DNA of 36,617 nucleotides. Origin: Acidimicrobiaceae bacterium. Its GTDB lineage: Bacteria; Actinomycetota; Acidimicrobiia; Acidimicrobiales; RAAP-2. The stretch is from the NCBI GenBank assembly GCA_003133325.1, contig PKXA01000044.1, forward strand, positions 1 to 36,617, given 5' to 3'. How positions within the stretch are numbered: the stretch's first letter is position 1; each line of letters begins with the position of its first letter. A program made the translations under genes and the position numbers. Under the pieces are notes generated by a model. It was given only the letters and a program-made list of their open reading frames with translations. It made no database searches and was not told the origin of the DNA. Shown here one piece after another: positions 1,234 through 36,607 of the stretch.

Positions 1234-1257
1234 CGCCTGGCCTGACCGGCCACTATG

Positions 1258-1276
1258 TACTACCTCATGGTAGTAT
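1258..1276 (+). promoter_or_regulatory. mazEF operator and -10 box, leaderless start
   Basis: A perfect 7-bp inverted repeat, TACTACC-TCAT-GGTAGTA (1258-1275), lies directly upstream of the antitoxin. TAGTAT at 1271-1276 is a -10 box whose predicted transcription start falls at the ATG (1284). That implies a leaderless mRNA, and no Shine-Dalgarno sequence is present. The repeat overlaps the -10 box, as expected for autorepression by the antitoxin-toxin complex. Confidence 0.6.
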
Positions 1277-1283
1277 CTTATGT

Positions 1284-1876: not shown

Positions 1877-2055
1877 GCCCGGCACCGATTGTTCGATGCA
1901 CGCCCAGGGCGGACGTCGGACCGGGCGCGCCTGACGAGCCGTTCTCCGACAGTCGGGTGGCAGAGGCCGGGTGGGGATGGCAGAGTGACGACGGGGGAGA
2001 GGCGGTTCTCCACAGCTACAGCCACAGCGACCGACAACAGTCAGCGAGGAGCGTC

Positions 2056-4553: not shown

Positions 4554-4612
4554 ATGAGCGGGGACGGCGCGTTGAGTCAGGGGTGCCTGGCCGCATGGCT
4601 GGTCGGGGGAGG

Positions 4613-4627
4613 CCGAGTTCCCTCGGG
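4613..4627. terminator. Hairpin between convergent operons
   Basis: The 86-bp gap between the acyl-CoA synthetase and the convergent end of the mce operon contains CCGAG-TTCC-CTCGG, extendable to GGCC/GGCC with a one-base bulge. There is no T-tract on either side. It is the only terminator-like structure in the gap and could act in both directions. Confidence 0.3.
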
Positions 4628-4639
4628 CCCGATCGGAAC

Positions 4640-15277: not shown

Positions 15278-15925
15278 TCACGTCGACCTGCCTCCCTCTG
15301 GCCTGCTGAGCGCGGAGGCGCGATCGACGATCCCGAAGTGCAGGAACTCCCTGACGGCCTCCTTCCGGAGTTCGACCTGTTCGGGATCGAAGAGCGATCC
15401 ATGCACGAGTTCCTCGCCGAAGCGGCCTGTGGCCAGTGGATGCACGATGATCCCGATGATCGAAAGGAGGGCGTGGCCCGTGTCCGCGCGACGGAACTCA
15501 CCGACGTCCATCCCCTCGTTGAGCAACCGGACCACGCCGATACCGATCCGATGCAGAGCGTCGATTGCTTCCTTGCCTTCGGCCAACCCGGGAGGCAGGT
15601 CGCTGTCCTCGACCAGTACTCGGATGAGAAGCCGGGGGTAGCTCTGATTCGATGCGAGCATATCGATGGCGGTGTCGCTCAAGCGTTCCAAGCGCGCTGT
15701 CGGCGTACCGCCCTCGGCGAGGGAACGTACCAACCCATCGTCCAGCGTGGCGAGGACCCGCGCCATCACCGCGCCGTACAGCTGGGCCTTGCTCGAGAAA
15801 TGGTGAAACAGCGACGCCTTGCTCAGCTGAGCCCGCTCCGCCACCTCGGCCAGGCCGACGCCTCCGAAGCCGCGAGCCGCAAACAGTTCCTCGGCACCGT
15901 TGAGGAGTCGCTGCCGCGACGGCAT
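15278..15925 (-). CDS. TetR-family regulator of the monooxygenase-mce operon
   Basis: A 215-residue TetR regulator. The N-terminal HTH is textbook: RLLNGAEELFAARGFGGVGL, then AEVAERAQLSKASLFHHF. The C-terminal part is a variable ligand-binding domain (RLLIRVLVEDSDLPPG...). The ATG at 15925 is chosen since homology begins there; the longer frame to 16045 crosses the promoter and operator. A perfect inverted repeat lies 16-47 bases upstream over its own -10 box, so autorepression is likely, with derepression by a substrate-derived ligand. The monooxygenase starts about 100 bases downstream. Residues 1-40 recur at 27.4 kb in the duplicated segment. Confidence 0.88.
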   Translation of the reverse strand: MPSRQRLLNGAEELFAARGFGGVGLAEVAERAQLSKASLFHHFSSKAQLYGAVMARVLATLDDGLVRSLAEGGTPTARLERLSDTAIDMLASNQSYPRLLIRVLVEDSDLPPGLAEGKEAIDALHRIGIGVVRLLNEGMDVGEFRRADTGHALLSIIGIIVHPLATGRFGEELVHGSLFDPEQVELRKEAVREFLHFGIVDRASALSRPEGGRST

Positions 15926-16161
15926 CTTGGCTGAGTCCCGTCCGATCGGTCGAATATATCCAATCGATCGGACGAAAACAAGTTCGCACGACGCAACCCA
16001 GAGGCACGGTTCAGCTTGTTCCCTCGAGCACGGTGCGGGCGACAAGCTCCGGGTCGTCCCACATCGGGACGTGCCCGCAACCTTTCAGCTCGATCCAACG
16101 AGCCGATGTCGGCAGTTGGTCGCTGAATTGACTGGTGCGACGGTTGAGCAACCAGTCGCGG
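15805..16161. repeat. Segmental duplication, copy 1 (functional)
   Basis: This 357-bp block spans the first 40 codons of the TetR gene, its promoter/operator and the last 50 codons of the alpha/beta hydrolase. It recurs in the same orientation at 27337-27693 with no net indels and about 17 mismatches by hand count (roughly 95% identity). Here all parts are in intact genes, so this is the complete copy. Confidence 0.9.
15941..15981 (-). promoter_or_regulatory. Promoter and TetR operator upstream of the monooxygenase-mce operon
   Basis: Minus-strand TTGTTT (15981-15976) and TATATT (15958-15953) are separated by 17 bases, a strong promoter. A perfect inverted repeat TCCGATCG-N16-CGATCGGA (15941-15972) covers the -10 box and half the spacer, so a bound repressor would block polymerase. 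The predicted transcription start is near 15946, about 20 bases before the TetR ATG. This is probably the main promoter for TetR, monooxygenase, yrbE and mce genes. Confidence 0.65.
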
Positions 16162-16793
16162 GTGCCGAAGGCGATCGTCACCGGAACGTCGATGACGTCT
16201 CCGCCGGCGAACTGGTCGTTCTGGCTGGCCGCGAACAGGTCATCGAGGATCGTCGTCTGGTCGAACATCCGGACGGACTCCACGGCCACGGGCGCCGGCA
16301 TGCGCCAGGGCCGCCCGAGGATCATGGGCAGCAGGACTGTGCGGCCTGCCGCGCTCTGCAACAGAGCACGGACGATGTGGGGATATCGCCGGACCATGGA
16401 ACGAAAGATGCGGAACCCGGTCACCGATGACGTTGGGCCCGGGCCGTGCCAGAGACCGGCCGGGCTGAGCCCGACCACGCTCCGGGCGAGGCCGAGCTTG
16501 GCTGCCTCCAGGGCGGTCCAGCCGCCGAGTGAGTTCCCCACCAGGTCGACGGGCCCGTCAACTCCGAGCTCGTGAAGCTGCTCTCCGAGTTGCTTGGCGA
16601 AATGCCGAGGACCGAGCGGCTCTCCGGGTCGGGGAGCTGGGGAGCTCCCGTGCCCGGGCAGGTCGAACGCAATGACGCGGCGATCCGCCGCCAGCATGCC
16701 CATGACCGGCTCCCATATTTCGCATGCCGATCCGATGCCGTGCAGGAGGATGAGCGGTCGACCGGCCCCTCGTTCGATCCGATTCCAGACCAT
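16011..16793 (-). CDS. Alpha/beta hydrolase (esterase/lactonase-like)
   Basis: A 260-residue alpha/beta-hydrolase-fold enzyme. Oxyanion segment LLHGIGS near residue 17; IAFDLPGHGSS; nucleophile elbow GNSLGG (Ser near residue 87); acid in FGTRDW; catalytic His in GCGHVPMWDDPE near residue 245. The triad is complete. The ATG at 16793 is five bases after the stop of the diiron-protein gene, in operon with it and the dehydrogenase. It resembles C-C or ester hydrolases of aromatic and alicyclic catabolism and could hydrolyse the ester made by the neighbouring Baeyer-Villiger enzyme. Its last 50 codons are duplicated at 27.6 kb. Confidence 0.88.
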   Translation of the reverse strand: MVWNRIERGAGRPLILLHGIGSACEIWEPVMGMLAADRRVIAFDLPGHGSSPAPRPGEPLGPRHFAKQLGEQLHELGVDGPVDLVGNSLGGWTALEAAKLGLARSVVGLSPAGLWHGPGPTSSVTGFRIFRSMVRRYPHIVRALLQSAAGRTVLLPMILGRPWRMPAPVAVESVRMFDQTTILDDLFAASQNDQFAGGDVIDVPVTIAFGTRDWLLNRRTSQFSDQLPTSARWIELKGCGHVPMWDDPELVARTVLEGTS

Positions 16794-16798
16794 TCGGC

Positions 16799-17698
16799 CT
16801 ACGTAGCGTCCTGGGGTCGAGGCCGGGTGTCGGGCACTTCCCAATTCGGGTCGATCAGATCCCCGCGGCGTTCGGCCAGCAGAGCTGAGTTGTCGAGATA
16901 GTCCCATGGTTGGAAGCCGGGTCTCAGAAACTGGACAATTGCGCGCGAGCGCTTTCGTAGCGCGCCCTGTGTTCCGAAGAGGTAACGACCGAGTCGTATC
17001 CACTCGCGCACGTCGCCCGCCTTGTCGTCGTGGTGAAGAAGCCTGGCAACCGTTATCGGAATGGTTACGCTCAGCACGACAATCGCGGTGCCGAGCCCGG
17101 TCACCCGGTAGAGGTAGGCGCGGACTCCTGTGCCGTGCACTGCAGTGAACGCATCGAAAAGTGCCGCCTTGTGCTCGACTTCCTCGTAGGAGTGCCAGAG
17201 CCAGAGCCTGGTTACACGCGAATCGCCGACGGTCTCCAATACTTCGGGGCGCCCCAGCACGATGTCGCCGATTTCGCCGATGAAATGCTCTCCGGAAAGG
17301 GCGGTAGCGCACCGGAAGGTGCTGCTGGTGTGGGAAAGCAGCTTGAGTGCCCGGCGCACTGGAGCCTCACACGCCTGGACCGGGTAGCCCCATTCGACCA
17401 GCAGGTCGTTGAACCGCCGGTGGAGGTTCGCATGGGCTCCCTCTTGGCGGATGAACGAGCGCAGCTCCCGGATCTGATCTTCGGATTGGAGCTCTCCTTC
17501 GAGCCGCGCTGCGTCCTTGATGAATTCGGCCTCGAGCAATGGGGCGCCGATGCTCAGCGCGTTCCAGAAGGCGGTGACCGCGGCGCCACCGGAGTGCCAC
17601 ATCCTCGGGACATCGGCGTCGTACTTGAAGTCCGGCCGACGTAACGTGACCGAAATACCTCGCTGCTGGGTTGTCGTTCTCATGTCTGGTTGGCTCAT
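16799..17698 (-). CDS. Metal-dependent hydrolase-family protein (putative diiron, COG3687-like)
   Basis: A 299-residue, mostly helical protein with a ferritin-like set of ligands: E58 (EAEF), E86-xx-H89 with H93 (RQEGAHANLH), E137-H138 (SGEHFIGE), and E173-xx-H176 (SYEEVEHK). I place it in the bacterial predicted metal-dependent hydrolase family. The real reaction of that family is poorly known, and a diiron oxygenase role is possible. A hydrophobic segment (GTAIVVLSVTIPITVARLL, around 205-225) suggests membrane association. ATG start with GAGGAG upstream. It sits between the dehydrogenase and the hydrolase, so it likely acts in the same pathway. Confidence 0.72.
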   Translation of the reverse strand: MSQPDMRTTTQQRGISVTLRRPDFKYDADVPRMWHSGGAAVTAFWNALSIGAPLLEAEFIKDAARLEGELQSEDQIRELRSFIRQEGAHANLHRRFNDLLVEWGYPVQACEAPVRRALKLLSHTSSTFRCATALSGEHFIGEIGDIVLGRPEVLETVGDSRVTRLWLWHSYEEVEHKAALFDAFTAVHGTGVRAYLYRVTGLGTAIVVLSVTIPITVARLLHHDDKAGDVREWIRLGRYLFGTQGALRKRSRAIVQFLRPGFQPWDYLDNSALLAERRGDLIDPNWEVPDTRPRPQDAT

Positions 17699-17707
17699 GG
17701 GGACTCC

Positions 17708-18469
17708 TCAGACCATCCGGGAACCGGCATCGATGGATATTGTCGTGGCGTTGAGGTAGCGGTTCGAGACGATGTGACACATGAGGTCGGCGATCTCCTC
17801 GGGACGGCCAAGCCGCTTCGGGTTGAGCAGCATCGACTTCAGTCCCTCTCGTGCTTCTTCCGGTAGTCCGGCCAGCATCTTGGTGTCGAACAGCCCCGGT
17901 GCCACATCCACCACACGGATGCCGAAGGGTGCGAGGTCTCTGGCGACAGGAAGGGTCATGCCGATGATTCCTGCTTTGCTCGCTGCGTACGCGGCCTGGC
18001 CAGACTGACCCTGCCAGGCAGCACCGGAGGCGACGTTGATAATTACCCCCCTCTCGCCCTCACCATCAGGCTCGTTGCCGGCCATGCGCATTGCAGCGTG
18101 GCGCATTACGTCGAACGTCCCGATGAGATTGACTTTGATGACATCGCTGAACCGATCGAGCGGGAGAGCTACCCCTCGGGAGATGATCTTTCCGGGAGCG
18201 GGGTTGCCGGCGGCATTCACGCACACATCGACCCGGCCGAATATCTCGTCGATCCGGGCGAAGGCTTTCTCGACGGCGACGGTGTCGGCGATGTTGACGT
18301 CGAAGCCGACCGCGCCGTTTCCGATGGCTTCCGCGGCGGCGTCAGCCGATGCTCCGTCGAGGTCGAGCAGCGCGACCCGGGCCCCTCCCTGAGCGAACGC
18401 CTGGGCAGTGGAGCGACCCATGCCCGAACCTGCACCTGTCACCACGGCGACTCGATCGTGTAGGTCCAC
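17708..18469 (-). CDS. Short-chain dehydrogenase/reductase
   Basis: A 253-residue classical SDR. NAD-binding VTGAGSGMGRS (residues 10-20), DLDG after the second strand (acidic, suggesting NAD rather than NADP), NAAG at 89-92, and the catalytic Ser / YAASK pair (NVASGAAWQ..., AAYAASKAG). It resembles 3-hydroxyacyl-CoA dehydrogenase type 2 or hydroxysteroid dehydrogenases. It could oxidise the ring alcohol to the ketone used by the monooxygenase, or supply the hydroxyacyl-CoA step, which has no other obvious gene here. GTG start; AAGGAA lies just upstream. First gene of the minus-strand operon driven from the 18.5-kb operator region. Confidence 0.9.
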   Translation of the reverse strand: MDLHDRVAVVTGAGSGMGRSTAQAFAQGGARVALLDLDGASADAAAEAIGNGAVGFDVNIADTVAVEKAFARIDEIFGRVDVCVNAAGNPAPGKIISRGVALPLDRFSDVIKVNLIGTFDVMRHAAMRMAGNEPDGEGERGVIINVASGAAWQGQSGQAAYAASKAGIIGMTLPVARDLAPFGIRVVDVAPGLFDTKMLAGLPEEAREGLKSMLLNPKRLGRPEEIADLMCHIVSNRYLNATTISIDAGSRMV

Positions 18470-18523
18470 GTTTCCTTACCTCCGGTTGCCGGTCCCGGTG
18501 TCCCCTCCCCCGGATTTTGCGAA

Positions 18524-18560
18524 GACTAATCTTGACTTGTCAGTAAAGTCAAGATTAGAT
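18524..18560. promoter_or_regulatory. Divergent promoters overlapping one 33-bp operator
   Basis: A perfect 13-bp inverted repeat, CTAATCTTGACTT-N7-AAGTCAAGATTAG (18526-18558), lies between the divergent dehydrogenase genes. Each arm contains a TTGACT -35 box. On the plus strand TTGACT (18532-18537) and TTAGAT (18555-18560) are 17 bases apart. On the minus strand TTGACT (18552-18547) and TTAGTC (18529-18524) are also 17 apart. One repressor dimer pair would therefore block both operons. Either TetR protein of the window is a candidate; the one at 26.5 kb is in the same operon. Confidence 0.75.
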
Positions 18561-18568
18561 TCGGGGCC

Positions 18569-18595
18569 ATGCGGACGATCACAACCGGGTCATAG
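18569..18595 (+). other. Eight-codon leader ORF before aldehyde dehydrogenase
   Basis: The predicted plus-strand transcription start (about 18567) falls almost on an ATG that opens an 8-codon frame (MRTITTGS). Its TAG overlaps the GTG start of the aldehyde dehydrogenase by one base (TAGTG). The dehydrogenase has only a weak ribosome-binding site, so a leaderless mini-ORF could load ribosomes by reinitiation. Pattern-based inference only. Confidence 0.3.
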
Positions 18596-20088
18596 TGGCC
18601 TTTCAGTTGACAGACGAAGTCGAGCAATTCCTCAAGCGCGCCGGCTCCAGCATCCTCATTGGTGGCGTATGGCGCCAGGCGTCCGACGGACGCACAATCT
18701 CGACCGAAGACCCGGCGACAGGCCGAGAACTGACTCAGATAGCTCGCGGAACTGCCGCCGATGTGTCCGCCGCGGTCGACTCGGCACAGAGCGCTTTCGT
18801 GGGCGACTGGTCATTGCTCACCCCCTCCCAACGTGGTCGCATGCTGTGGGCTCTCGCTGACCTGGTCGACGAGCACGCCGACGAGCTGGCCACCCTCGAA
18901 ACCCTCGAGGTGGGCAAGCCATTGCGAGAGAGCCGATTCTTCGACGTCATCCTCGCCGGTGAGGTTCTTCGCTACTACGCCGGGTGGCCGAGCAAATTCG
19001 CCGGCGATGTTCTCCCGGTATCCCCGATGGTGGGTTCCATCATCGGGTACTCCCGACGCGAGCCCCTCGGTGTGATCGCAGCGATCACGCCATGGAACTT
19101 CCCGATTCTGCTCGGCGCGGCCAAACTGGGACCCGCGCTGGCCACCGGCAACACCGTGGTCATCAAGCCCTCCGAGCTGACGTCACTTTCCACAATGAGA
19201 CTGGCTGAACTCGCTCTCGAGGCGGGCATCCCGCCTGGGGTGATCAACGTCGTAACCGGCTACGGCGCCGAAGCCGGTCGCGCTCTCGGCGAACACCCGG
19301 CCGTTCGGAAGATCGCGTTCACGGGCTCGACCGCCACCGGCCGGGCGCTCGTCGCTGCATCGGCACCGACCCTGAAGAAGCTTCAGCTCGAGTTGGGTGG
19401 CAAGTCGGCCAACATCGTGTTCCCCGACGCCGACCTCGCGGAAGCCGCCAGCGGTGCCTACCAGGCAATCTTCCTGAACCAGGGCGAGGTCTGCTGTGGT
19501 GGTTCGCGGTTGTTCGTCCACGACTCGGTGTACGACGACTTCCTTGCCGAGCTTGTGGCCGCCGCAGAGGGCATCGAGCTCGGGCACGGCCTCGACGACA
19601 TGACCGATATGGGCCCACTGGTGAGCGCGGCCCAGCTCGATCGGGTAACCGGCTTCGTCAACGGTGGGATACGAGATGGCGCCTCGGTAGCCACCGGAGG
19701 CGGAGCCCCGGCCGAGCCCCCCGGAAGCGGGCACTTCATGTCACCAACGGTGTTCACCGACGTACGGGATGACATGGCTATCGCTCAGGATGAGATCTTC
19801 GGACCGGTGGTCTGCACCTTTCGCTTCCATGACGAGGACGAGGTGGTGGCCCGCGCTAACGGCACTGCCTACGGCCTGGCCGCTGGGGTCTGGACCAATG
19901 ACCTTCGTCGCGCCCATCGAATGGCTGCTCGGCTCGCCGCCGGCACCGTGTGGATCAACACGTACAACATTCTCGATCCCGCCGCGCCCTTTGGCGGTTA
20001 CTCGCAGTCCGGCTACGGCCGCGAGTTCGGCCTCGACTCGATGATCGAGTTCACCCAGACCAAGTCCGTGATGATCGGGATGGATTGA
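18595..20088 (+). CDS. Aldehyde dehydrogenase
   Basis: A 497-residue NAD(P)-dependent aldehyde dehydrogenase. [10 protein letters not shown] is the cofactor-site motif; general base E266 in [12 protein letters not shown]; catalytic Cys300 in [17 protein letters not shown] near the C-terminus. Everything needed for activity is present and length is normal. It oxidises an aldehyde to the acid, which the acyl-CoA synthetase four genes on would activate. The GTG start at 18595 overlaps an upstream mini-ORF stop. First structural gene of the plus-strand catabolic operon, controlled from the shared operator. Confidence 0.92.
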
Positions 20089-20137
20089 CCGTATCGATCG
20101 GCGACCGGTACCAATCAGCTAGCACAAGGAGCGCCAA

Positions 20138-20563
20138 ATGACCTCTTATACCAACTCCGACGACGTCTACACCTACATCGGTGGGATCTTCAGGGACGCC
20201 ACCGCCGATGTTGATCTCGGGCCCAAGCTCGCAGCGTCCGGCGTCATCTTAAAGCTCGACTACTCCAACCCTGATGCCGTCCTGGTGGTCGACTTCCCCC
20301 AGGGGAAGGTCTATGTCGGTGACGAGGGTGATGCCCTCAAACCCAACATCACGCTCTATATGACAACCGACCTGGCACACAGCTATTGGCTCGGTCGGGT
20401 CAACGCGGCGTCGGCTCTTGCCAAGGGCCAGGCACGAGCGAAGGGCTCGATCCCCAAGATCCTCAAACTGGCTGCGCTGGCGAAGCCGCTGTTCCCGAGG
20501 TACGAGGCCAGCCTGCGAGCCGCGGGTCTCGATCATCTCGTCGACGGAGCTGACGCCAAATGA
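20138..20563 (+). CDS. SCP2 sterol-carrier domain protein
   Basis: A 141-residue single-domain protein of the SCP2-like lipid-carrier fold. The pattern LKLDYSNPDAVLVVDFPQGK, then ITLYMTTDLAHSYWLGRVNA and a KGSIPKILKL helix is characteristic of actinobacterial SCP2 proteins in sterol and lipid catabolic clusters. It has a hydrophobic cavity in known members and would bind a bulky hydrophobic acid or its CoA ester. AAGGAG lies seven bases before the ATG. Its stop overlaps the next start (ATGA). It supports a large hydrophobic substrate for the pathway. Confidence 0.82.
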   Translation: MTSYTNSDDVYTYIGGIFRDATADVDLGPKLAASGVILKLDYSNPDAVLVVDFPQGKVYVGDEGDALKPNITLYMTTDLAHSYWLGRVNAASALAKGQARAKGSIPKILKLAALAKPLFPRYEASLRAAGLDHLVDGADAK

Positions 20564-21621
20564 GCGAGACCATGCGTGCAGTCGTCCTCGACAAGCCCGG
20601 TCGGGTCCGGGTCGAGGAAATTCCCCGACCAGTGATCCAGTCGCCGACCGATGCCATCGTGCGGGTAACGACCGCTGCCATCTGTGGCTCTGACCTCCAC
20701 CTGATCGACCGGAAGATCCCAGGCATGGAGGAGGGTGATGTCGTCGGGCACGAGTTCGTCGGTGTCATCGAAGACATCGGCGATGCAGTGATGACCATGG
20801 AGCCGGGCCAGCGAGTCGTCGCGTCGATGTTCCCGGCGTGTGGCCATTGCCGGTCGTGCATGCGGCACCAGTACCGCACCTGCCCGTCGTTTCAGATCTT
20901 CGGCAGTGGGCCGGGATTCGGCGACCTCCTCGGGGCCCAGACCGATTTCGTCCGGGTGCCCCTCGCTGACATGACGCTGGCCACGATCCCCGACCGCATG
21001 TCCGACGAGGATGCGGTGTTCACCGGCGACATCCTCGCCACCGCCTACCAAGGCTTGGCAGATGGGGGTGTGCGGCACGGTGACTCGGTGGCCATCGTCG
21101 GCGCCGGCCCCGTCGGTCAACTGGCGGTCATGTGTGCGCCGCTCTTCGGCGTTGATCAGGTCTTCGCCATTGACCTGGTGCCCGAGCGGCTCGAAGCCGC
21201 CAAAGCGCTCGGGGCCATTCCGGTCGACGCGCGCCTCGGGGACCCATCCGACTCGATTTTCGACCAGACCCGGAACCTGGGTGCCGACGTCGTACTCGAA
21301 GCCGTGGGCAACGAGGCTGCCCTCGAAACCGCCTGGTCGGTGGTGCGCACCGGCGGCACTGTCGCCATGATCGGGGTGCTCTACGACGAAGACTGGCCGG
21401 TGTCGGCCGGTGATAACTGGCTGCGAGCAGTCACCGTGAAGCCGATCGTCGGCGACCCGTTGACCCATCGCCACGACCTGTTGCGCCTGATCGAGACGGG
21501 GAAGCTCGACCCGGCACGCATCATCTCGCACACGATGTCTCTCGATGACGCTGCCGACGCATATCAGATGTTCAAGGAGCACCGAGCCAACAAGGTCGTC
21601 CTCAAGACTGGAGAGGAGTGA
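20560..21621 (+). CDS. Zinc-dependent alcohol dehydrogenase (MDR family)
   Basis: A 353-residue medium-chain dehydrogenase. Catalytic zinc motif CGSDLH near residue 43 and GHEFVG near 65; intact structural zinc site with four Cys spaced C-x2-C-x2-C-x7-C (CGHCRSCMRHQYRTC, around 92-106); Rossmann motif VGAGPVGQLAV followed by an acidic ID at the end of the second strand, suggesting NAD. It likely oxidises a primary or cyclic alcohol to the aldehyde or ketone. It overlaps the SCP2 gene (ATGA) and the following synthetase gene (TGATG). A second in-frame ATG lies at 20572. Confidence 0.9.
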   Translation: MSETMRAVVLDKPGRVRVEEIPRPVIQSPTDAIVRVTTAAICGSDLHLIDRKIPGMEEGDVVGHEFVGVIEDIGDAVMTMEPGQRVVASMFPACGHCRSCMRHQYRTCPSFQIFGSGPGFGDLLGAQTDFVRVPLADMTLATIPDRMSDEDAVFTGDILATAYQGLADGGVRHGDSVAIVGAGPVGQLAVMCAPLFGVDQVFAIDLVPERLEAAKALGAIPVDARLGDPSDSIFDQTRNLGADVVLEAVGNEAALETAWSVVRTGGTVAMIGVLYDEDWPVSAGDNWLRAVTVKPIVGDPLTHRHDLLRLIETGKLDPARIISHTMSLDDAADAYQMFKEHRANKVVLKTGEE

Positions 21622-23198
21622 TGCCAGGGTCCGAGACCAGCAGGCAAGGTGTGAGCCTCGGAGAGGTACTGATCGGAGCATTCACCCGGTACGGCGATCG
21701 AACCGCATTCGTCCAGGAAGATCGCACCTACACCTATCGGCAGGCGGCGGACCTCCTGGCTCGGATGATCTCGGTGTTCAACCAGAGAGGAGTGGGCGCG
21801 GGCAGCGCCATCGCTGCCCTCTCACCAAATTGCGCCGAGGTGTTCCTCGCGCAGACGGCGGCATGGCTGGCCGGCGGCCGGTACTCGGGTCTTCATCCGC
21901 TCGGATCGTTCGATGATCAGCTCTACACATGCGACGACGCCGAGTTCGATCTGATCGTCGCCCACCCGGCGTTCGCGTCGCGAGCCGCCGGGCTCGCCGA
22001 AAAGGCGGCGACCGTCAAACAGGTCCTCACCTTGGGACCGACCGATGGTGTGGGCGAAGACCTGCTGGCCCTGTGTGAACAGGCGGCACCAGCGAGGTTG
22101 CATCCCGGACCGGCCCGCGAGGACGATCTGTGTTGGCTCCAGTACACAGGAGGCACGACCGGTCGCCCAAAGGGGGTCGAGCTCTCGCATCGTTCTATCG
22201 TCCAGACCATCTACTCGACTCTTTGCTCGTGGGAGATCCCGGCCCAACCGCGTTATCTGGCGGCGTCGCCGATCACCCATGCCGCGCTCGTTCCGCTGCT
22301 CCCGACATTGGTGTTGGGCGGCGAGGTCCACCTGCACACCCATTTCGACCCGCAGCACTGGCTCGACACAGTCGAGAAGCAGCACATCAACTACGCGTTG
22401 GCGGTGCCATCCATGATCTACGCACTGCTCGACCATGGCGATCCGACCCACCGCGACACCTCATCGCTGGTCACGGTCAACTACGGCGCCGCACCGATGG
22501 CACCTTCCCGCCTCGCCGAAGCCCACGAGGCCATCGGGCCGGTCTTTACCCAGGTCTACGGCCAGACTGAATGCGCGGCAATCGGAACCTCGCTGCTCAA
22601 GGCCGAACACCACATGACGGGCGCGCCGGATCTGCTGCGCTCGTGCGGACGGCCTGTGGTGGGAGCCCGGGTTGAAGTCCTCGACGACGACAATCAACAA
22701 GTCGAGGACGGAACCATCGGCGAGATCTGCATCCAGGGCCCGTCAGTCATGGACGGATACTGGAAGCTGCCCGACGAGACTTCGTCCGCCCTGTCCGGTG
22801 GCTGGCTCCACACCAGTGACATGGCTTTCCGAGACGAGGACGGCTTCCTGTTCATCGTCGACCGCAAGAAGGACATGATCATCACTGGCGGTTTCAACGT
22901 CTACCCACGCGAGATCGAGGACGTCCTCAACGCTCATCCCGGGATCTCCGCCGCGGCCGTCATCGGTGTGCCCGACGAGAAATGGGGCGAGGCCGTCAAG
23001 GCGATCGTCGTAGCTCGGCCCGGAAACGACGTGGACGTCGACGAACTCGTCGCGCTCGTCAAGGAGCACAAGGGACCGCACCACGCGCCCAAGTCCATCG
23101 AAGTTGTCGATGGGCTACCGATGACGGGTCTCGGCAAGGTCGACAAGGCGGCCCTGAGGGCCGACTACTGGCACGACAATGATCGCCAGGTGAATTGA
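21621..23198 (+). CDS. Acyl-CoA synthetase (AMP-forming)
   Basis: A 525-residue ANL ligase. P-loop YTGGTTGRPKG from residue 175; YGAAPM; VYGQTE; the hinge DRKKDMIITGGFNVYPREIE; C-terminal MTGLGKVDKAALR, with the lysine in GKVDK. One oddity is that the normally conserved TGD of the A8 region is TSD here (LHTSDMAFRDEDGF). Activates the acid made by the upstream dehydrogenases. GAGAGGAG precedes the ATG at 21621, one base into the previous stop. The other synthetase of the window is at 3.0 kb, is shorter, and has TGD intact. Confidence 0.92.
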   Translation: MPGSETSRQGVSLGEVLIGAFTRYGDRTAFVQEDRTYTYRQAADLLARMISVFNQRGVGAGSAIAALSPNCAEVFLAQTAAWLAGGRYSGLHPLGSFDDQLYTCDDAEFDLIVAHPAFASRAAGLAEKAATVKQVLTLGPTDGVGEDLLALCEQAAPARLHPGPAREDDLCWLQYTGGTTGRPKGVELSHRSIVQTIYSTLCSWEIPAQPRYLAASPITHAALVPLLPTLVLGGEVHLHTHFDPQHWLDTVEKQHINYALAVPSMIYALLDHGDPTHRDTSSLVTVNYGAAPMAPSRLAEAHEAIGPVFTQVYGQTECAAIGTSLLKAEHHMTGAPDLLRSCGRPVVGARVEVLDDDNQQVEDGTIGEICIQGPSVMDGYWKLPDETSSALSGGWLHTSDMAFRDEDGFLFIVDRKKDMIITGGFNVYPREIEDVLNAHPGISAAAVIGVPDEKWGEAVKAIVVARPGNDVDVDELVALVKEHKGPHHAPKSIEVVDGLPMTGLGKVDKAALRADYWHDNDRQVN

Positions 23199-23199
23199 G

Positions 23200-24036
23200 A
23201 TGACCGTTGCCGACAGCAGTGCCGCGGTGGCCCTCGAGCGGCGGAGCTCGACCGCTTGGATCACCCTGGAACGACCTGAAGCGATGAACGCCTTCGATCC
23301 GGCACTGATCTTCCAGCTCAGCGCAGCGGTTCGCGAGGCCGCCGATGACCCGAGTGTGCGGGTGCTCGTGATCACCGGCTCGGGCAGGGCTTTCTCGGCG
23401 GGTGCCGATCTGAAGGCGATCTCGTCTCCCGATGGAGACGTCGACGCCGACGCGATGCTGGCGTTCGTCGCCGAGGCCGCGGCCATGATCGAGACGGTGG
23501 CTGCCGTCGGCAAGCCGGTCATCGCGGCGGTGAACGGCCTTGCGCTCGCGGGTGGATTGGAGCTCGCGCTGGCCTGCGACCTGATCATCGCGTCAGACCG
23601 CGCCTTGCTTGGTGACGCCCACTCGAACTTCGGTCTTCTGCCCGGCGCCGGAGGATCGGTTCGGCTGACTCGCCGCATCGGCGCGTCAGCGGCCAAGCGC
23701 CTGATGTACAGCGGCGACAGCGCGCCTGCGCCTGACCTGGTTGTGTGCGGGTTGGTCGATGAGGTCGTCCCTGCTGATCTCCTCGAATCCAAAGTCGAGG
23801 ACCTGGCCGCACAGTTCGCCGCAAAGAGCCCGCCAGGCCTCGCGGCGATGAAGCGGCTGGTCGACCACGCATCCGATTCATCACTGGCCGACGCGCTCGA
23901 GGCCGAGCAACGCGAACTGGCCCGCCATGCCCACTCGCCGGATCTCGCTGAAGGCCTCGCTGCCTTTCGTGCAAAGCGTGCGCCGGTGTTCGGGTCAGCA
24001 TCGTCCTCGTCCAATCCAACCATGGAGTCCAAATGA
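23200..24036 (+). CDS. Enoyl-CoA hydratase/isomerase-family protein
   Basis: A 278-residue crotonase-fold protein. CoA-binding GRAFSAGADLKAI (residues 64-76); oxyanion-hole and first catalytic Glu in NGLALAGGLELA (E121); LLPGAGGSVRLTR at 145-157. The second catalytic Glu of hydratases should lie 20 residues after the first; that position is His141 (DAHSNFG). So it may be a hydratase variant, an isomerase or a C-C hydrolase rather than a standard hydratase. ATG one base after the synthetase stop; ATGA overlap with the acyl-CoA dehydrogenase. Confidence 0.85.
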   Translation: MTVADSSAAVALERRSSTAWITLERPEAMNAFDPALIFQLSAAVREAADDPSVRVLVITGSGRAFSAGADLKAISSPDGDVDADAMLAFVAEAAAMIETVAAVGKPVIAAVNGLALAGGLELALACDLIIASDRALLGDAHSNFGLLPGAGGSVRLTRRIGASAAKRLMYSGDSAPAPDLVVCGLVDEVVPADLLESKVEDLAAQFAAKSPPGLAAMKRLVDHASDSSLADALEAEQRELARHAHSPDLAEGLAAFRAKRAPVFGSASSSSNPTMESK

Positions 24037-25190
24037 CGAACCCGTTCCTGTTCACCGACGAGCACGAAGAGTTCCGGCTCTCCGTTCGGGGACTTGCCGA
24101 GTCCCGCTTCTCTGGCACTTACCTCGAAAAGGCAAAGAGCGACAAATATCCTTCCGACGAGCTGCGCCAACTCGGTGACGCAGGTATCACCGGGCTCCTC
24201 GTAGATGTCGGGGACGGCGGACAGGGAGCAGATGCTCTCACGCTCGGCATAGCGGTCGAGGAAATGTCGCATGCAAATCTCACGGTCGGCTACCTGGTAT
24301 TCGGCTCGACGGTGGCTTGTCACGTCGTTGCTCAGCACGCGAGCCCGGAAGCGAAGGGCAAATGGCTCCCTGGTTTGCTGGCCGGTGACTCCGTCTCGGC
24401 CCTCGCTCTCACCGAACCCGAGTCGGGATCGGATGCCGCGGCAATGCGCACAACCGCTTCCCGCGTCGACAGGGGCTGGATCCTCAATGGAGAGAAGACC
24501 TCAGTCACCGCGGTGGTCCATGCCGACGTCATCATCGTCTTCGCCAAGACCGACCAGTCGGCCGGAGCTCGCGGTGTGACAGCCTTTCTCGTCGACGCCA
24601 ATGACCCAACGGTCACCAGCCACCCGTTCGACGACCCCGGCAACAAACCCCTCGGTCGGGGGTCGGTCGTCTTCGACGGCACGTTCGTGCCCGACGACCA
24701 CATGCTCGGGGCGCTCGGCGATGGGTTTCGGATCGTCATGCACGAGTTCGATCTCACCCGCACGCTCATCGGGCTGATCCTCACGGGGGGTGCCCAGAAG
24801 GCTCTCGACATGACGGCGGAATATGTGACACAGCGTCATGCCTTCGGGCAACAGATCTCTCGTTTTCAGGGCGTCTCGTTCCCCATCGCCGAGCACACCA
24901 CCTACGTCGAGGCGCTGAGAATGTTGTCCTATCGCTCGTTGGGCTTGCGGGTCGCCGGCCGTCCCCATTCACGTGAGGCAGCAATGGTGAAGTGGTGGGG
25001 GCCGGAGGTCGCATTCAACGCCATCAAGGACTGCATCGTGCTGCACGGTCATGTCGCCTATTCCGATGAGCTGCCCTTACAGTCGATGCTTCGCGACGTG
25101 TCCGCCTACTTCATCGGCGACGGGACACCACAAATCCAAAAGCTGGTGATCGCCCGCGATGTACTCGGGCGCGACGCGGTCGGATCATGA
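24033..25190 (+). CDS. Acyl-CoA dehydrogenase
   Basis: A 385-residue FAD-dependent acyl-CoA dehydrogenase. FAD/substrate motif ALTEPESGSDAAAM near residue 125; NGEKTSVT; helix segment RHAFGQQISRFQGVSFPIAE; terminal motif GDGTPQIQKLVIARDVLG. The catalytic base of medium-chain enzymes is Glu in YEGT; here the position is Asp363 (GDGT). The alternative isovaleryl-type Glu position has Thr (FDLTRTL). Asp as base has been reported in some alicyclic acyl-CoA dehydrogenases, which would fit the proposed substrate, but this is inference. ATGA overlap with the preceding gene. Confidence 0.9.
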   Translation: MTNPFLFTDEHEEFRLSVRGLAESRFSGTYLEKAKSDKYPSDELRQLGDAGITGLLVDVGDGGQGADALTLGIAVEEMSHANLTVGYLVFGSTVACHVVAQHASPEAKGKWLPGLLAGDSVSALALTEPESGSDAAAMRTTASRVDRGWILNGEKTSVTAVVHADVIIVFAKTDQSAGARGVTAFLVDANDPTVTSHPFDDPGNKPLGRGSVVFDGTFVPDDHMLGALGDGFRIVMHEFDLTRTLIGLILTGGAQKALDMTAEYVTQRHAFGQQISRFQGVSFPIAEHTTYVEALRMLSYRSLGLRVAGRPHSREAAMVKWWGPEVAFNAIKDCIVLHGHVAYSDELPLQSMLRDVSAYFIGDGTPQIQKLVIARDVLGRDAVGS

Positions 25191-25201
25191 AAGGAGCAGC
25201 C

Positions 25202-26389
25202 ATGCGAGACGTCGTGATCGCCGGTGTGGGGATGACCCAGTTCGGTAAATTGCCCGACCGTAGTCTGAAGTCACTTACGAGCGAAGCGGTCGACGAGGCA
25301 TTGGCCGACGCTCACGCGGATCCAGAGGAAGCCGAGTTCGTGTATTTCTCCAACGTCGCCGGCGGCCGCCTACAGGAACAGGACGCCATTCGTGGCCAGG
25401 TCTGGCTCAGCGACTCGGTTCTTGCCGGCGTGCCGTTGGTTAACGTCGAGAATGCGTGCGCATCCGGTTCGACGGCAGTGCATCAAGCTTGGCTGTCGGT
25501 TGCGTCGGGCGCCGTCGACGTGGCCGTGGCGGTGGGCGCCGAGAAACTCCATGTTCCCGACAAAGCTCGCGCCTTCAAGGCGATGACCTCCGGCGTCGAC
25601 CAGGACCGCCTGGAGGAGTTCGCCTCCCTGCTCGGCGGTGACTCGACGTCGCGTTCGATGTTCATGGACATCTACGCCCGCTTCGCGCTCGACTACATGG
25701 AGCGAACCGGCGCCACAAGGGAGGACTTCGCACGAGTGTCGGTGAAGAACCACGGCCATGGCGCCCTCAATCCCAAGGCCCACTACGGTGTTTCGCTGAC
25801 GCTCGAGGACGTGTTGTCGGCGCGGGAGATCAGCGGACCGTTGACGCTTCCCATGTGCGCCCCGATGGGAGATGGGGCCGCCGCGGGGATCATCACGACG
25901 CCCGAGCGGGCGCACGCGTGGGGTGCCGAGCCGGTTCGATTGCTCGGCGTCGCGATCGGCTCAGGCAAGGTAGGCACCGCTGAAGGCCGCCTCGTCACGG
26001 AGACAGCGCGCCGGGCCTACGAACGTGCTGGTATCACCCCTGTGGACGTGGACGTCGTCGAGTGCCACGACGCCACCGCTCCGGCCGAGTTGATCGTCAT
26101 GGAGCAGCTCGGTCTGTGCGCTGAGGGCGAAGCACCCAAGCTTCTGCTTGCCGGTGAGACCACACTGGGTGGACGACTGCCGGTCAACCCGAGCGGGGGC
26201 CTCGAGAGCAAGGGGCATCCCTTGGGAGCGACGGGAATCGCACAGTTGGTGGAACTCGCCGACCAGCTGCGACATCGATGCGGTGACCGCCAAATTGCGA
26301 ACCTACGCATCGCTTTGGCCGAGAATGCCGGTGGCTACCTCGGTCCCGACGCCGCCGCTGCCGCCGTGGTCATCCTGGGGTCGATATAG
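25202..26389 (+). CDS. SCP-x/Ltp-type thiolase
   Basis: A 395-residue thiolase-superfamily protein. Nucleophile Cys86 in NACASGS; His289 in VECHDAT; His339 in LESKGHPLGATG. The second catalytic Cys of classical thiolases (CxGGG) is absent: the C-terminal motif is ENAGGYLG with Tyr379. This is the SCP-x/Ltp subgroup, containing both beta-ketoacyl-CoA thiolases and steroid side-chain retro-aldolases. The latter need a DUF35 partner, which I do not see here. The ATG at 25202 has AAGGAG five bases upstream and is preferred over the overlapping ATG at 25187. Likely final chain-shortening step. Confidence 0.88.
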   Translation: MRDVVIAGVGMTQFGKLPDRSLKSLTSEAVDEALADAHADPEEAEFVYFSNVAGGRLQEQDAIRGQVWLSDSVLAGVPLVNVENACASGSTAVHQAWLSVASGAVDVAVAVGAEKLHVPDKARAFKAMTSGVDQDRLEEFASLLGGDSTSRSMFMDIYARFALDYMERTGATREDFARVSVKNHGHGALNPKAHYGVSLTLEDVLSAREISGPLTLPMCAPMGDGAAAGIITTPERAHAWGAEPVRLLGVAIGSGKVGTAEGRLVTETARRAYERAGITPVDVDVVECHDATAPAELIVMEQLGLCAEGEAPKLLLAGETTLGGRLPVNPSGGLESKGHPLGATGIAQLVELADQLRHRCGDRQIANLRIALAENAGGYLGPDAAAAAVVILGSI

Positions 26390-26473
26390 TGGGCATCGAT
26401 TCCGCAACTCGTGCGTCCGGCGACCAACATCTCGATTCTGGGACGGCGTGCGTCAGGTAGAGGCCAGGGTGTG

Positions 26474-27043
26474 ATGGCAAGAGCGAGGGTAACCACGGTC
26501 GAAGCCATTCGATCCAAAGCGGCGACCTTGTTCGAACGACAGGGTTATGCAAAGACCAGTCTCGAGGACATCGCCAAAGCCGTCGGCGTCTCCAAACCGA
26601 CGGTGTACGCCTACGTGGGCTCCAAGTCGGAACTGCTCGAGCAGATCGTCATAGAAGTGATGGTGACTCTCGATGACGGTTTGATGGCGATTCTGGACAA
26701 CCAGGACTCGGCCGAGGCCAAGTTGCGCGCGTCCATCCTCTTGCAGGCGCGAGCAGCAGCCGATCAACGGAACTACTACCAACTCTTGTTCTCCGAGCAA
26801 CCGGACCTCTCCGCCGCAATGCAAGACCGGGTCAACGAGTGGGCGCGCTCGATTAACCACCGATACGCCAAATTGATCGATCAGTGTCGAGACGAAGGGG
26901 TTCTATCGACCGACATCGACCCGATGGTGGCGGCGAACCTCATTCTCGGCATGATGACGTCGGTGAGTCGATGGTATCGACAGCGAAACCGATTCTCGCC
27001 CGAAGAGATCGGCGACCAGGCCTTTCGCATGATCGCTCTGTGA
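26474..27043 (+). CDS. TetR-family regulator, end of catabolic operon
   Basis: A 189-residue TetR regulator. HTH at about 10-55: IRSKAATLFERQGYAKTSLE, then DIAKAVGVSKPTVYAYVGSK. The C-terminal domain has a helix with RSINHRYAKLIDQCRDEGVL. Start either GTG 26471 or the adjacent ATG 26474; upstream frame to 26411 is not supported. It lies 84 bases after the thiolase on the same strand, with no clear promoter of its own, so it may be the operon's own repressor. The 33-bp inverted repeat at 18.5 kb is the best candidate target. It is not closely related to the TetR at 15.9 kb. Confidence 0.85.
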   Translation: MARARVTTVEAIRSKAATLFERQGYAKTSLEDIAKAVGVSKPTVYAYVGSKSELLEQIVIEVMVTLDDGLMAILDNQDSAEAKLRASILLQARAAADQRNYYQLLFSEQPDLSAAMQDRVNEWARSINHRYAKLIDQCRDEGVLSTDIDPMVAANLILGMMTSVSRWYRQRNRFSPEEIGDQAFRMIAL

Positions 27044-27085
27044 GAGGCGGGCTGCAATCCCGTACCCGGTGATGCTCATAGTTGC

Positions 27086-27115
27086 AATTGGTCACAAAGA
27101 TCCCAGTGATCAATT
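27086..27115. repeat. Imperfect inverted repeat after the TetR gene
   Basis: AATTGGTCAC-N10-GTGATCAATT, 10-bp arms with one mismatch, lies 43 bases after the TetR stop. No T-run follows. It may be a weak terminator for the catabolic operon or a protein-binding site. The rest of 27044-27322 shows no supported gene. Confidence 0.35.
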
Positions 27116-27322
27116 CGGGACCTGTGGACTGCGGCACGGCATCACGGATTGAATCGCGGTGGTGTCAGTCTGGGATTCCCGGCCGATTCATCCGCGAGGG
27201 CTCATGATGAAGGAACAGGCTCGGCCGCTGCCGGTGAACCACAGATGAGCCGGGTCACAGAAGCGCCACCGGTCGGTTCCCCATTTTATTCTGTGCGAGC
27301 ATCCCCAGCCGCACACTCGCCC

Positions 27323-27457
27323 TCATCCACCTGGGGGAAACAGCGACGCCTTGCTCAGCTGAGCCCGCTCCGCCACCTCGGCCAGGCCGACGCCTCCGAA
27401 GCCGCGAGCCGCAAACAGTTCTTCGGCAGCGTTGAGGAGTCGCTCCCGCGACGGCAT
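27323..27457 (-). pseudogene. Truncated TetR gene (HTH-only fragment)
   Basis: Within the second copy of the duplicated segment, ATG 27457 opens a 44-codon frame matching the first 40 residues of the TetR at 15.9 kb (MPSRERLLNAAEELFAARGF...). It breaks into unrelated sequence after KASLF and stops. The recognition helix is kept but the ligand-binding and dimerisation domain is gone. Of the codon differences, Gln to Glu and Gly to Ala are conservative, so the fragment could derive from a related paralogue rather than from decay of this copy. Most likely non-functional. Confidence 0.8.
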
Positions 27458-27693
27458 CTTGGCTGAGTCCCGTGCGATCGGGCGAAGATATCCAATCGAT
27501 CGGACGAAAACAGGTTCGCACGACGCAACCCAGAGGCACGGTTCAGATCGTTCCCTCGAGCACGGTGCGGGCGACAAGCTCCGGGTCGTCGCAAACCGGG
27601 ACGTGCCCGCAACCTTTCAGCTCGATCCACCGAGCCGATGTCGGCAGTTGGTCGCTGTACTGACAGGTGCGGCGGTTGAGCAACCAGTCGCGG
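27337..27693. repeat. Segmental duplication, copy 2 (remnant)
   Basis: A second copy of 15805-16161, offset by exactly 11,532 bp, same orientation and length. The operator's right arm (CGATCGGA) is unchanged, while the left arm has one substitution (TGCGATCG) and the -10 is TATCTT instead of TATATT. Flanks are unrelated to copy 1 on both sides. CACCGGTCGG occurs in direct orientation 61 bases before and 41 bases after the block (27267-27276, 27734-27743); whether these relate to its arrival is unclear. Confidence 0.9.
27543..27693 (-). pseudogene. C-terminal fragment of the alpha/beta hydrolase gene
   Basis: The last 50 codons of the hydrolase at 16.0 kb are repeated here, including the catalytic-His region, ending in a TGA at 27545-27543. 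Several substitutions are present (for example GTS at the end becomes GTI). The nucleophile and oxyanion regions are missing, so the fragment cannot be an enzyme. Confidence 0.8.
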
Positions 27694-27772
27694 AGGCATC
27701 ACCGGTCAAGCCACTCTCAACAGGGAGTCATTTCACCGGTCGGAGCGACAGAATGGCCACCAAGGCAGCACA

Positions 27773-29146
27773 ATGGGTGTTGTGAATCAGACTCGCAGTG
27801 GTCCCCGAGACCTGACCGTCGTTGCTGTGCCGCTGTATTTCGGGGGCATGGCCGCCGAATATCTCTGGCTGCACCGACAGGCTGCAAGGCGGGGACCGAC
27901 TGCCGGTGACTATGAGCTGCATGACACGTTGACCAGCTTGGCCATGGGTGTCGGGAGTCTGGTGGCGCCCTTGTTTGTTCCCAAGTTGCTCCGACCGTTC
28001 ACACCAGGTCGGGGACGATACGGCAAGACGGTGGTCGCCGTCGCGCTCGGAGCTGCAGCTCTGACCACGGTGGCTGACATGGTGGCCGATCGGGCCGGTG
28101 ATCACGGCGGTCGCGGAGGATCTGATGCGGCCGATTCCTCGCAGTTGATCGATGGCACGGACGAAGGCTCGCCGGTCACCGGGCGCAGCCGGCGACGAGC
28201 GTTGGCCCGGTCGGCCCGTAAGGTCGCATCGGTGGGTGGAGTGGTTGCCGTCGCGGTGGGCGCGGTGGCCGTGACGACTACGTGGGCCTCACGAATGACG
28301 CCTGAGCGACTGTGGCGGCGCAGATTCCTTCCCGCGTTGGGTACCGGCCCTCTGGCGTTGGCGCTCGCCATCGGGGGGTGGGACTTCATCTACTACTGGA
28401 ATCACCGGCTCATGCACGAGACCCGGTACATGTGGGCGATTCACGTGGTGCATCATTCGAGTGAGCACTACAACCTGTCGACCGCCCTGCGCCAACCGGT
28501 AGCTGATGCCCTCGGCACTTTCTTGCCCTACGGCATCTTGTGCCTCTTCGGGATCAGTCCCGAATTGATCACGACTGCCCGTGGCGTGAACCTGCTTTAC
28601 CAGTTTTGGATTCATACCGAAACTATTGACCGATTGGGCCCCACCGAAGCAGTTCTCAATACTCCGTCACATCACCGTGTCCATCACGGGTCCAATTTGC
28701 AGTACCTCGATCGCAATCACGGCAGTATTCTTATCGTTTGGGACCGACTCTTCGGCACGTTCGAGCCTGAAGTCCAACCCGTTGTGTATGGACTCACCAA
28801 GAACATCAATTCCTTCAACCTCGGTCGGGTTGCGACCCACGAGTACGCGGACATGATGCGCGACGTAGCCCGGTCGAACAGTTGGGGTGATCGCCTCTCC
28901 TTCGTACTCCGGGGTCCCGGTTGGGCCACCCGACATCGGCCGGAGGGGGTCGTTGCGAATGCCGATACGCAGGGGAGATCGGATATGCAGTTGTCGGAAT
29001 CTGACGGAGCCGAGCCGAGCCGAGCCGCCTTACCCCCTCAGGGCATCGCTGATCCGAAAACCCCGGTGGACGCGAGGGTGTCATCCCGGTCCCCTCATGA
29101 CGATGGCCTCCAGCCGATACCTGGCAGGCGTGAGTTCGGGCCGTGA
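27773..29146 (+). CDS. Fatty acid hydroxylase/sterol desaturase-family membrane protein
   Basis: A 457-residue integral membrane diiron oxygenase. The histidine clusters of the family are clear: HRLMH near residue 209, HVVHH near 223, and HRVHH near 301, plus HTE and HEY nearby. Hydrophobic segments lie around 15-35, 85-105, 155-175 and 190-205. A hydrophilic insertion rich in Gly, Asp and Arg (about 105-150) sits between the early helices. The last 75 residues are low-complexity and low-confidence. Such enzymes hydroxylate or desaturate lipids and sterols using O2. The gene is downstream of the duplicated remnant, not in the main operon, but could supply oxygenated substrate. Start ATG 27773 or GTG 27782; no strong ribosome-binding site. 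Confidence 0.83.
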   Translation: MGVVNQTRSGPRDLTVVAVPLYFGGMAAEYLWLHRQAARRGPTAGDYELHDTLTSLAMGVGSLVAPLFVPKLLRPFTPGRGRYGKTVVAVALGAAALTTVADMVADRAGDHGGRGGSDAADSSQLIDGTDEGSPVTGRSRRRALARSARKVASVGGVVAVAVGAVAVTTTWASRMTPERLWRRRFLPALGTGPLALALAIGGWDFIYYWNHRLMHETRYMWAIHVVHHSSEHYNLSTALRQPVADALGTFLPYGILCLFGISPELITTARGVNLLYQFWIHTETIDRLGPTEAVLNTPSHHRVHHGSNLQYLDRNHGSILIVWDRLFGTFEPEVQPVVYGLTKNINSFNLGRVATHEYADMMRDVARSNSWGDRLSFVLRGPGWATRHRPEGVVANADTQGRSDMQLSESDGAEPSRAALPPQGIADPKTPVDARVSSRSPHDDGLQPIPGRREFGP

Positions 29147-29509
29147 GTGGAGCGCTCATAGGCGATTTCGTGCGCGATCCGTGCGCGTAGGGGCGGAAGA
29201 CAGGGGTCGACAGCGGTCAGCAGCGGCCACCAGCGGCCAATCGAAATTGCCATCCAGGTGGCAGTATGTGAATCCCTGCAGGTCAGAAGCTAGGCCGGTC
29301 TGAATTCCCGGCGCAGAGGCCGAGGGTTCGCGTCCCTTCACCTCCACCCGCGAGATACCCTGGTCAGGGGCTAGTGAGCATGGGCCGGCGGGCGTCGGGG
29401 ACGCTGGCGTTGATCCGGTCCACGGGTCTCAGCGGGACTCAATCGGCACCGAGGTCGTCAGTTTGTGAGTTAGCCTCCAGATGCGATACGGATCAGTTGT
29501 CATTAATAT
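29147..29509. other. Gene-free stretch with tRNA-3'-half-like sequence
   Basis: No supported gene. Contains clustered CAGCGG units around 29206-29240, a tRNA-3'-like element at 29300-29348, and one CGGGACTCAA (29433-29442), a 10-mer found again in tandem after the next two genes. Confidence 0.5.
29300..29348 (+). other. tRNA-3'-half-like sequence, copy 1
   Basis: AGAGGCCGAGGGTTCG (29315-29330) continues as a T-arm (GAGGG, loop TTCGCGT, CCCTT) followed by a 7-base acceptor-like strand and ACC. Distances fit a tRNA, but the presumptive anticodon stem pairs at only three positions and no matching 5' acceptor strand (GGAGGTG) was found upstream. It is likely a tRNA or tmRNA 3' remnant, such as an attachment site, not a working gene. 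Confidence 0.45.
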
Positions 29510-30106
29510 GTGGACCGCTGGGAGATGATCGCTGCGACGCTCGTGAAAAGGAATCGGGAGAAGGCCGGACTTTCTCAACGGGCGCTGGCGGTGCGCTCGG
29601 GGGTTCCCCAGCCGGTGATCTCCCGGATCGAGTCCGGCCGTGAGCAACCTGGCCTTCCGTTGCTTGGAAAGATCCTTGCGGGTCTAAGGGTTGAGGTGAC
29701 CATCAGCGACCGGTTGGCCGACCACCGGGTCACCGCGGAAGAGGCTGCCAGAAGCGTCGCCCAGGCTTTGACGGGCGGCAATACGGAGAACGCATTCCGG
29801 ACGTGCCTCGAGCTCGCGGACGACTTGGCAGCAGTCACGTCCATTCGGCTCACCGAGCTCGTCGGCGACCGCCCTGCGCTCACCGGCGATAGCAGGTATG
29901 ACGCTCTGGTGGCGGCGATCAGCGAGGATGCGTGCGAGCGTGCCGACATCCCTGTGCCGGCATGGGTGAAAGAGCCCGAGCGCAGAGTCGATCGTTGGTA
30001 TCTCACCGATATAGCGTCTCTCCGTGAGCTTGCCGACGAGGAGACCCCGCCGGTATTCCGGCGCCACGGCGTCTTCATCCTCGCGGACGAGTTGGCTCGT
30101 GCCTGA
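29510..30106 (+). CDS. XRE-family HTH protein, probable antitoxin
   Basis: A 198-residue protein with an N-terminal XRE helix-turn-helix (KRNREKAGLSQRALAVRSGV, then PQPVISRIESGREQPGLPLL, residues about 13-55). After a linker come conserved segments TCLELADDLAAVTSI and VPAWVKEPERRVDRWYLTDI. In actinobacteria this layout precedes a DUF6036-type nucleotidyltransferase gene, as here, so it is probably the antitoxin and autoregulator. Start GTG 29510 (ATG 29525 possible); AT-rich sequence CATTAATA just upstream, no Shine-Dalgarno. The stop TGA overlaps the ATG of the next gene (TGATG). The HTH call is firm; the antitoxin role is inferred from the neighbour. Confidence 0.75.
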   Translation: MDRWEMIAATLVKRNREKAGLSQRALAVRSGVPQPVISRIESGREQPGLPLLGKILAGLRVEVTISDRLADHRVTAEEAARSVAQALTGGNTENAFRTCLELADDLAAVTSIRLTELVGDRPALTGDSRYDALVAAISEDACERADIPVPAWVKEPERRVDRWYLTDIASLRELADEETPPVFRRHGVFILADELARA

Positions 30107-30644
30107 TGCTCTCGGAAGGTGATGCCGAGCCGCACTCGACGAGCTCGTCAAGGTCCTGGAACGAGAACACCGACGATCGAGGATCTACATCGTCGGCGGT
30201 GCGGCGCTCATGTTGCACTTCGGAGCACGTGTCGCGACAAAGGGCATCGACGCCCAGATCACGCCGCTCGACGAGGTCCAACCCCTGATCCTGGAGGTTG
30301 CTCGTCGTCGGGGCCTTGCAGACGACTGGCTCAATGGCGCCGCCGCCATGTATGTCCCCCCACACGTCGACGACCCGAACCCGACGATCCTCATCGAGAC
30401 CGAACACGTCATTGCCTCTGTCGCCTCGGCCCAGATGCTCCTGGCTATGAAGATCCGGGCAAGCCGCGGGAGGCAGGACCTGGGCGACATCATCTTCTTG
30501 GTCGGTGAGGTCGGCGTCAGCTCTGTGGCGGCTGCAGTGGAGCTCTACGAGCGTTTCTATCCCGAAGACCCATTGAGGGACCGGGCCTTGCGGATGCTGG
30601 AAGCGATCTTTTCCGAGGGAGCTGATCGCACACTGCATCAGTAG
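30106..30644 (+). pseudogene. Frameshifted nucleotidyltransferase-like toxin (DUF6036/AbiEii type)
   Basis: ATG 30106 overlaps the stop of the XRE gene and starts MLSEGDAEP. The coding signal then jumps by one base near 30130 to another frame, ALDELVKVLERE..., which runs to 30644 without an upstream start codon. The main frame has the nucleotidyltransferase motif YIVGGAALMLHFGARVATKG, then IDAQ. The usual DxD-type pair is degraded: the first Asp position (TRDID in relatives) is Gly (TKGID). The internal ATG 30210 would lack the GG motif. So it is either a decayed toxin, a -1 frameshift product, or affected by a sequencing error. The frameshift plus the lost Asp argue for decay. Confidence 0.65.
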
Positions 30645-30670: not shown

Positions 30671-30740
30671 GTGCTGCCCGAACATGCCCCACGGTGCCCT
30701 TCTCTGTCGTCGCTGACCAGCGGCTTCTTCCAAACGTCCA

Positions 30741-30809
30741 GCTCAGCTGGGGTGCCACCGCTACGTTCGCAATGTAGAGGCCGAGGGTTCGAGTCCCTCA
30801 ACGCCCACC
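30741..30809 (+). other. tRNA-like sequence with intact 3' half, anticodon CGC
   Basis: From 30761 the geometry is that of a tRNA: stem CTACG, 7-base loop TTCGCAA (anticodon CGC, alanine), stem TGTAG, 5-base variable region AGGCC, T-stem GAGGG/CCCTC with loop TTCGAGT, then a 7-base acceptor strand and ACC. GCTCAGCTGG at 30741 resembles a D-arm start, but the D-stem does not close. The bases where the 5' acceptor strand should lie do not pair with AACGCCC. Best read as a damaged tRNA or tRNA-derived attachment site. Confidence 0.5.
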
Positions 30810-30962
30810 GACTCGTTGACCTGCATCTTTGCGGTACCAATCGGAACGGTGCGCGAACCGCGGTCCAGGTGGACGAAGGTTGGCTGCCAACTCGACCTCT
30901 TTTGCAGCCGGCCCGCTGTTCTCAGCCGATGACGGGCCGTCGAGGCGGCATTCGATATTCCA

Positions 30963-36512: not shown

Positions 36513-36586
36513 CTCACAACCGGGACGGTCACCTTCAAAGTCGGGGCTGTCACGCATGTCGGTGCCTATTCGCTGAGCCTCTAACT

Positions 36587-36607
36587 GACGACGACGACGA
36601 CGACGAC
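36587..36607 (+). repeat. (GAC)7 microsatellite
   Basis: Seven tandem GAC units close to the window's right edge, just after a TAA ending a coding-like frame (VTFKVGAVTHVGAYSLSL). It may be chance or belong to the next gene's upstream region. Confidence 0.6.

Follow-up and report, generated by a model that had tools for sequence, protein, structure and literature searches.

The window analysed here, a 36,617-nucleotide stretch of DNA from an Acidimicrobiaceae bacterium, contains the junction between a TetR-type regulator gene (TetR1) and an alpha/beta-hydrolase gene twice, once between the two intact genes and once in truncated form at a second site. This raises the question of how the second copy arose and whether it still has a function. 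An alignment of both copies (Table 1) extends over 357 bases in direct orientation, with 17 mismatches (95.2% identity), no gaps and a constant offset of 11,532, while the BLAST alignment is slightly longer at the remnant (27334-27693). Outside the block, identity drops to 2-8 matches per 20-base bin, about the level of unrelated sequence. These data bear out the initial, sequence-only reading of this DNA, which had described an indel-free copy of about 95% identity, 11.5 kb away and with unrelated flanks. The pair is the sole long direct repeat within the window, and the block is present only twice, with no third copy, in the organism's own 4.05-Mb assembly (133 contigs, 96.6% complete, 3.1% contamination); the E value of the second copy (1.5e-162) rules out a chance match. 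A search for the block at other loci, as proposed in the earlier reading, revealed it in none of the 60 related genomes, where matches were limited to stretches of 27-50 bases, and gave no match in plasmids.

Table 1. Coordinates of the features discussed in the text (positions in the window)
Feature	Position	Strand	Basis
Remnant block, TetR1-hydrolase junction in truncated form	27337-27693	-	Repeat search, alignment
TetR1 start in remnant, cut after residue 43 within the TetR_N domain	27337-27466	-	
Remnant operator, three changes, dyad 12/18 (native 15/18)	27471-27506	.	
Remnant hydrolase tail, 49 codons and stop; S>C, F>Y, M>V, W>C	27543-27693	-	
Native junction copy, joined to the complete TetR1 and hydrolase genes	15805-16161	-	Alignment, gene calls
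Intact TetR1 gene; SAKM read used as start	15278-15934	-	
Native TetR1 operator palindrome (predicted)	15939-15974	.	Similar site before G291 orthologue
Intact alpha/beta-hydrolase gene	16011-16799	-	
Catabolic gene cluster, hydrolase to second TetR gene	16011-27043	.	Synteny with G291 contig C7
Spacer between second TetR gene and remnant	27044-27336	.	No match
Fatty acid hydroxylase/desaturase-like gene and immediate upstream region	27706-29146	+	G001 homology resumes about 27706

The intact TetR1 protein carries the PF00440 domain at residues 10-56, counted from the SAKM read of the start. In the remnant, no more than the first 43 residues are left, and the frame stops four residues further on (...SKASLFPPGG*), so that the helix-turn-helix itself is cut. 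Hence, the fragment is indeed a truncated TetR, as stated before, but does not contain the whole helix-turn-helix then ascribed to it. On the other side of the junction, the proposed hydrolase tail (family PF12697) was confirmed as the end of the gene with its stop codon, lacking a start. Two of its substitutions, M>V and W>C, fall in the motif GCGHVPMWD, which is nearly invariant among 11 hydrolase homologues. The block is thus recognisable as a copy of functional genes and at the same time disabled in both, TetR by the cut and the early stop and the hydrolase by its reduction to 49 codons; by inference, it should not be able to yield a working regulator or hydrolase.

To assign the differences to one copy or the other, we used the orthologue from a related genome, G291, for the TetR and operator part and the 11 hydrolase homologues for the tail, all of them distant outgroups that share about 70-80% of nucleotides within the block. 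The G291 TetR1 orthologue (74% identical residues) is encoded on contig C69, separate from the hydrolase on contig C7. Of the 17 differences, ten arose on the remnant branch: one synonymous TetR site, four non-coding sites (three in the operator) and five hydrolase bases, which account for S>C, F>Y, M>V (two bases) and W>C. For S>C, the assignment was made by residue, as the outgroup has a different serine codon. Derived in the native copy are a Q and a G in TetR, at positions occupied by E and A in both the remnant and G291, and a single outgroup suggests the same direction for three synonymous hydrolase sites; two sites could not be polarised. This comparison with relatives, already called for in the sequence-only reading, therefore places about ten changes on the remnant branch versus two to five on that of the intact copy. 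The same reading had considered some coding differences conservative, which is true of TetR only; in the hydrolase tail, the loss of the motif residues M and W argues for relaxed constraint. Together, four derived residues in the tail and three operator changes point in this direction, albeit in small numbers. As judged from the outgroups, the remnant has decayed without visible constraint, and the two copies diverged before the intact TetR acquired its changes. The excess of transversions over transitions in the block (11 versus 6) is based on too few changes to be interpreted; longer congeneric comparisons gave 45:42 to 89:50 transitions to transversions. The divergence of 4.8% lies inside the between-species range of the genus (2.7-6.1% substitutions), indicating that the event would be old if rates are alike.

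The predicted native operator is a palindrome, CGTCCGATCGGTCGAATA/TATCCAATCGATCGGACG, with pairing at 15 of 18 positions, and a similar operator-like sequence precedes the G291 orthologue. A scan of the organism's own genome allowing up to three mismatches to this operator returned the remnant as the only other site. All three changes of the remnant site are located in one half of the palindrome, leaving the other half intact, and each of them alters a base common to the native site and G291 and breaks one dyad pair. The operator that had been called near-intact is therefore present, but with 12 of 18 pairs left this description was too generous. Since three of 17 differences within 36 bp are not unusual (P = 0.24), our claim is limited to the remnant operator not being protected and does not extend to a faster decay.

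The catabolic gene cluster is syntenic with contig C7 of G291 (which matches the Acidimicrobiaceae MAG palsa_743, PLZB01000072.1) at 72-76% nucleotide identity and is missing, at high DNA identity, from four congeneric genomes. Positions 1240-4649 are 96-97% identical to two congeners, G001 and G004, and positions 27708-29145 are 93% identical to G001. Because these matches end at about 4650 and restart at about 27705, the accessory or variable region, which the congeners lack, is an interval of roughly 23 kb. The remnant forms its right end, a placement absent from the first reading: it starts 294 bp past the second TetR gene, the last of the catabolic operon, and ends about 12 bp short of the resumed G001 homology at the desaturase locus. 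Comparisons with relatives gave no match that would indicate the source of the spacer. At the left edge of the region (4621-4650), a ligase gene is common to the window, G001 and G004 until about this point, after which each diverges.

Several other repeats and traces of mobile elements were observed. The 3' part of a tRNA-Ala(CGC) gene is present as two incomplete copies (29315-29348 and 30740-30812), which look like integration scars; the intact gene is apparently located on contig C16 (near 173,200), further copies of the 3' end occur on other contigs, and ARAGORN found no complete tRNA in the window. An XRE-type regulator module (29342-30341), which begins at a tRNA scar, is 96% identical to one on contig C108 of G004, again located beside tRNA-Ala copies, and could represent a small mobile unit. 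At positions 975-1174, short repeats (60-110 bases) recur on several other contigs of the same genome with 74-95% identity, and G000 and G004 contain numerous copies, 70-82% identical, of a repeat of about 160 bases in G001 (L105, 1669-1836). The 82 bases at 36518-36600 have a 100% identical match on contig C12 of this genome; a repeat may therefore form the end of the contig.

Based on these observations, we considered whether the remnant has a function and how it came to its place. A standing operator copy had been suggested to titrate the repressor, and the site could also serve as a captured control element for the desaturase gene about 80 bp downstream. It is the only other operator-like site at this threshold, one palindrome half is intact, it lies directly upstream of a conserved gene, and decoy sites are able to tune expression, as described for DNA sponges (PMC7686491). 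Yet all three operator changes are derived, confined to one half and disruptive to the dyad, which is not the picture of a sequence kept by selection. Moreover, the TetR promoter points away from the desaturase gene, and a promoter and terminator scan of 27000-27900 gave no match, although the promoter test is a weak one in this group; Rfam gave no match in the window. Titration thus finds no support in conservation, with weak binding still conceivable from the bases present, and we regard a working decoy or control site as highly improbable. Another very improbable scenario is that the direct copies, which flank the 11.5-kb operon almost exactly, could permit its excision or amplification by recombination, with the remnant operator providing weak TetR1 binding upstream of the desaturase gene. 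Sequence alone cannot distinguish a relic from a weakly functional site, but the remnant is most likely an ordinary leftover of an old gene duplication and not a working switch.

With a probability of roughly 70%, we interpret the block as a non-functional relic of a duplication within this lineage, by whatever route. One copy lies at either end of the operon, neither gene is complete in the remnant, and a third copy is lacking. A tandem duplication, to which we give slightly less than an even chance, would start by doubling 15805-27336, an 11.5-kb segment comprising roughly the entire catabolic operon. With these breakpoints, the cut TetR1 would come to lie straight after 27336, in direct orientation and at a spacing of 11,532, as is observed; the remnant also sits beside the end of the presumed parent segment, 294 bp past the last gene of the operon. 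A deletion from within the second hydrolase copy into the desaturase flank would then remove the second copy except for its initial 357 bases, and these would subsequently drift by mutation. Against the relic account, microhomology at the edges amounts to two or three bases at most, the deletion partner and the spacer are without explanation, intermediates in which more of the second copy survives are not known, and the changes in the native TetR are equally expected with an imported copy. Alternatively, the block could be a piece of the homologous cluster of a related strain or species, brought in by illegitimate recombination with or after the accessory region; it would still be a relic, but one that never was a tandem copy here. 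Such an import, like a stray copy, fits the bases equally well. In favour of import, the divergence of 4.8% is of between-species size, the remnant retains outgroup residues at two TetR positions, and the block is situated at the margin of the accessory region, near the tRNA-Ala end scars. However, both a stray and an imported copy would leave its position unexplained, and with import the direct orientation beside the operon end would be a coincidence. Furthermore, no donor with the junction was found among the 60 relatives, in a protein search of 397 genomes from the order or in a contig scan for the hydrolase, which together sample the Acidimicrobiales, and we consider import unlikely. The earlier suggestion of a second related cluster that was later lost is compatible with the junction not being found elsewhere and with the outgroup-like TetR residues; it comes close to the best explanation, with tandem duplication equally a candidate, and no other part of a second cluster was detected at high identity in the organism's own genome. 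Finally, the second copy could have been stitched in from another strain's contig, given the fragmented assembly (133 contigs, 3.1% contamination). Such a misjoin is very unlikely: it needs two separate false joins, neither with shared edge sequence, matches to one and the same genus are obtained on either side of the contig, and copies differing at 17 sites are not a single sequence used twice.

The preferred reading, a relic of duplication, can be related to known systems. A survey of 64 prokaryote genomes identified about 7,000 candidate pseudogenes (PMC522871), and the remnant resembles such sequences in being a truncated gene copy with broken frames and substituted conserved residues. It differs from them in comprising the ends of two genes together with the intervening operator and in having a near-identical parent 11.5 kb away. 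Amplification of catabolic genes is known in Acinetobacter: as in the duplication and amplification of the A. baylyi cat genes (PMC9997567), the repeat is direct, comprises a catabolic segment and has edges with little or no homology, whereas here only 357 bases of the presumed second copy are left and the duplication itself is unseen. With decoy operators of the DNA sponge type (PMC7686491), it shares an additional regulator site distant from the regulator gene, but it is one decayed site that shows no sign of conservation or effect.

The remnant, whose wider importance is small, marks one end of a variable region of 23 kb. An operator copy that seems intact by eye can prove to be a decayed relic when outgroups are used. 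For this uncultured actinobacterial lineage, the remnant would preserve a trace of the way in which an accessory catabolic operon came to be duplicated or relocated.
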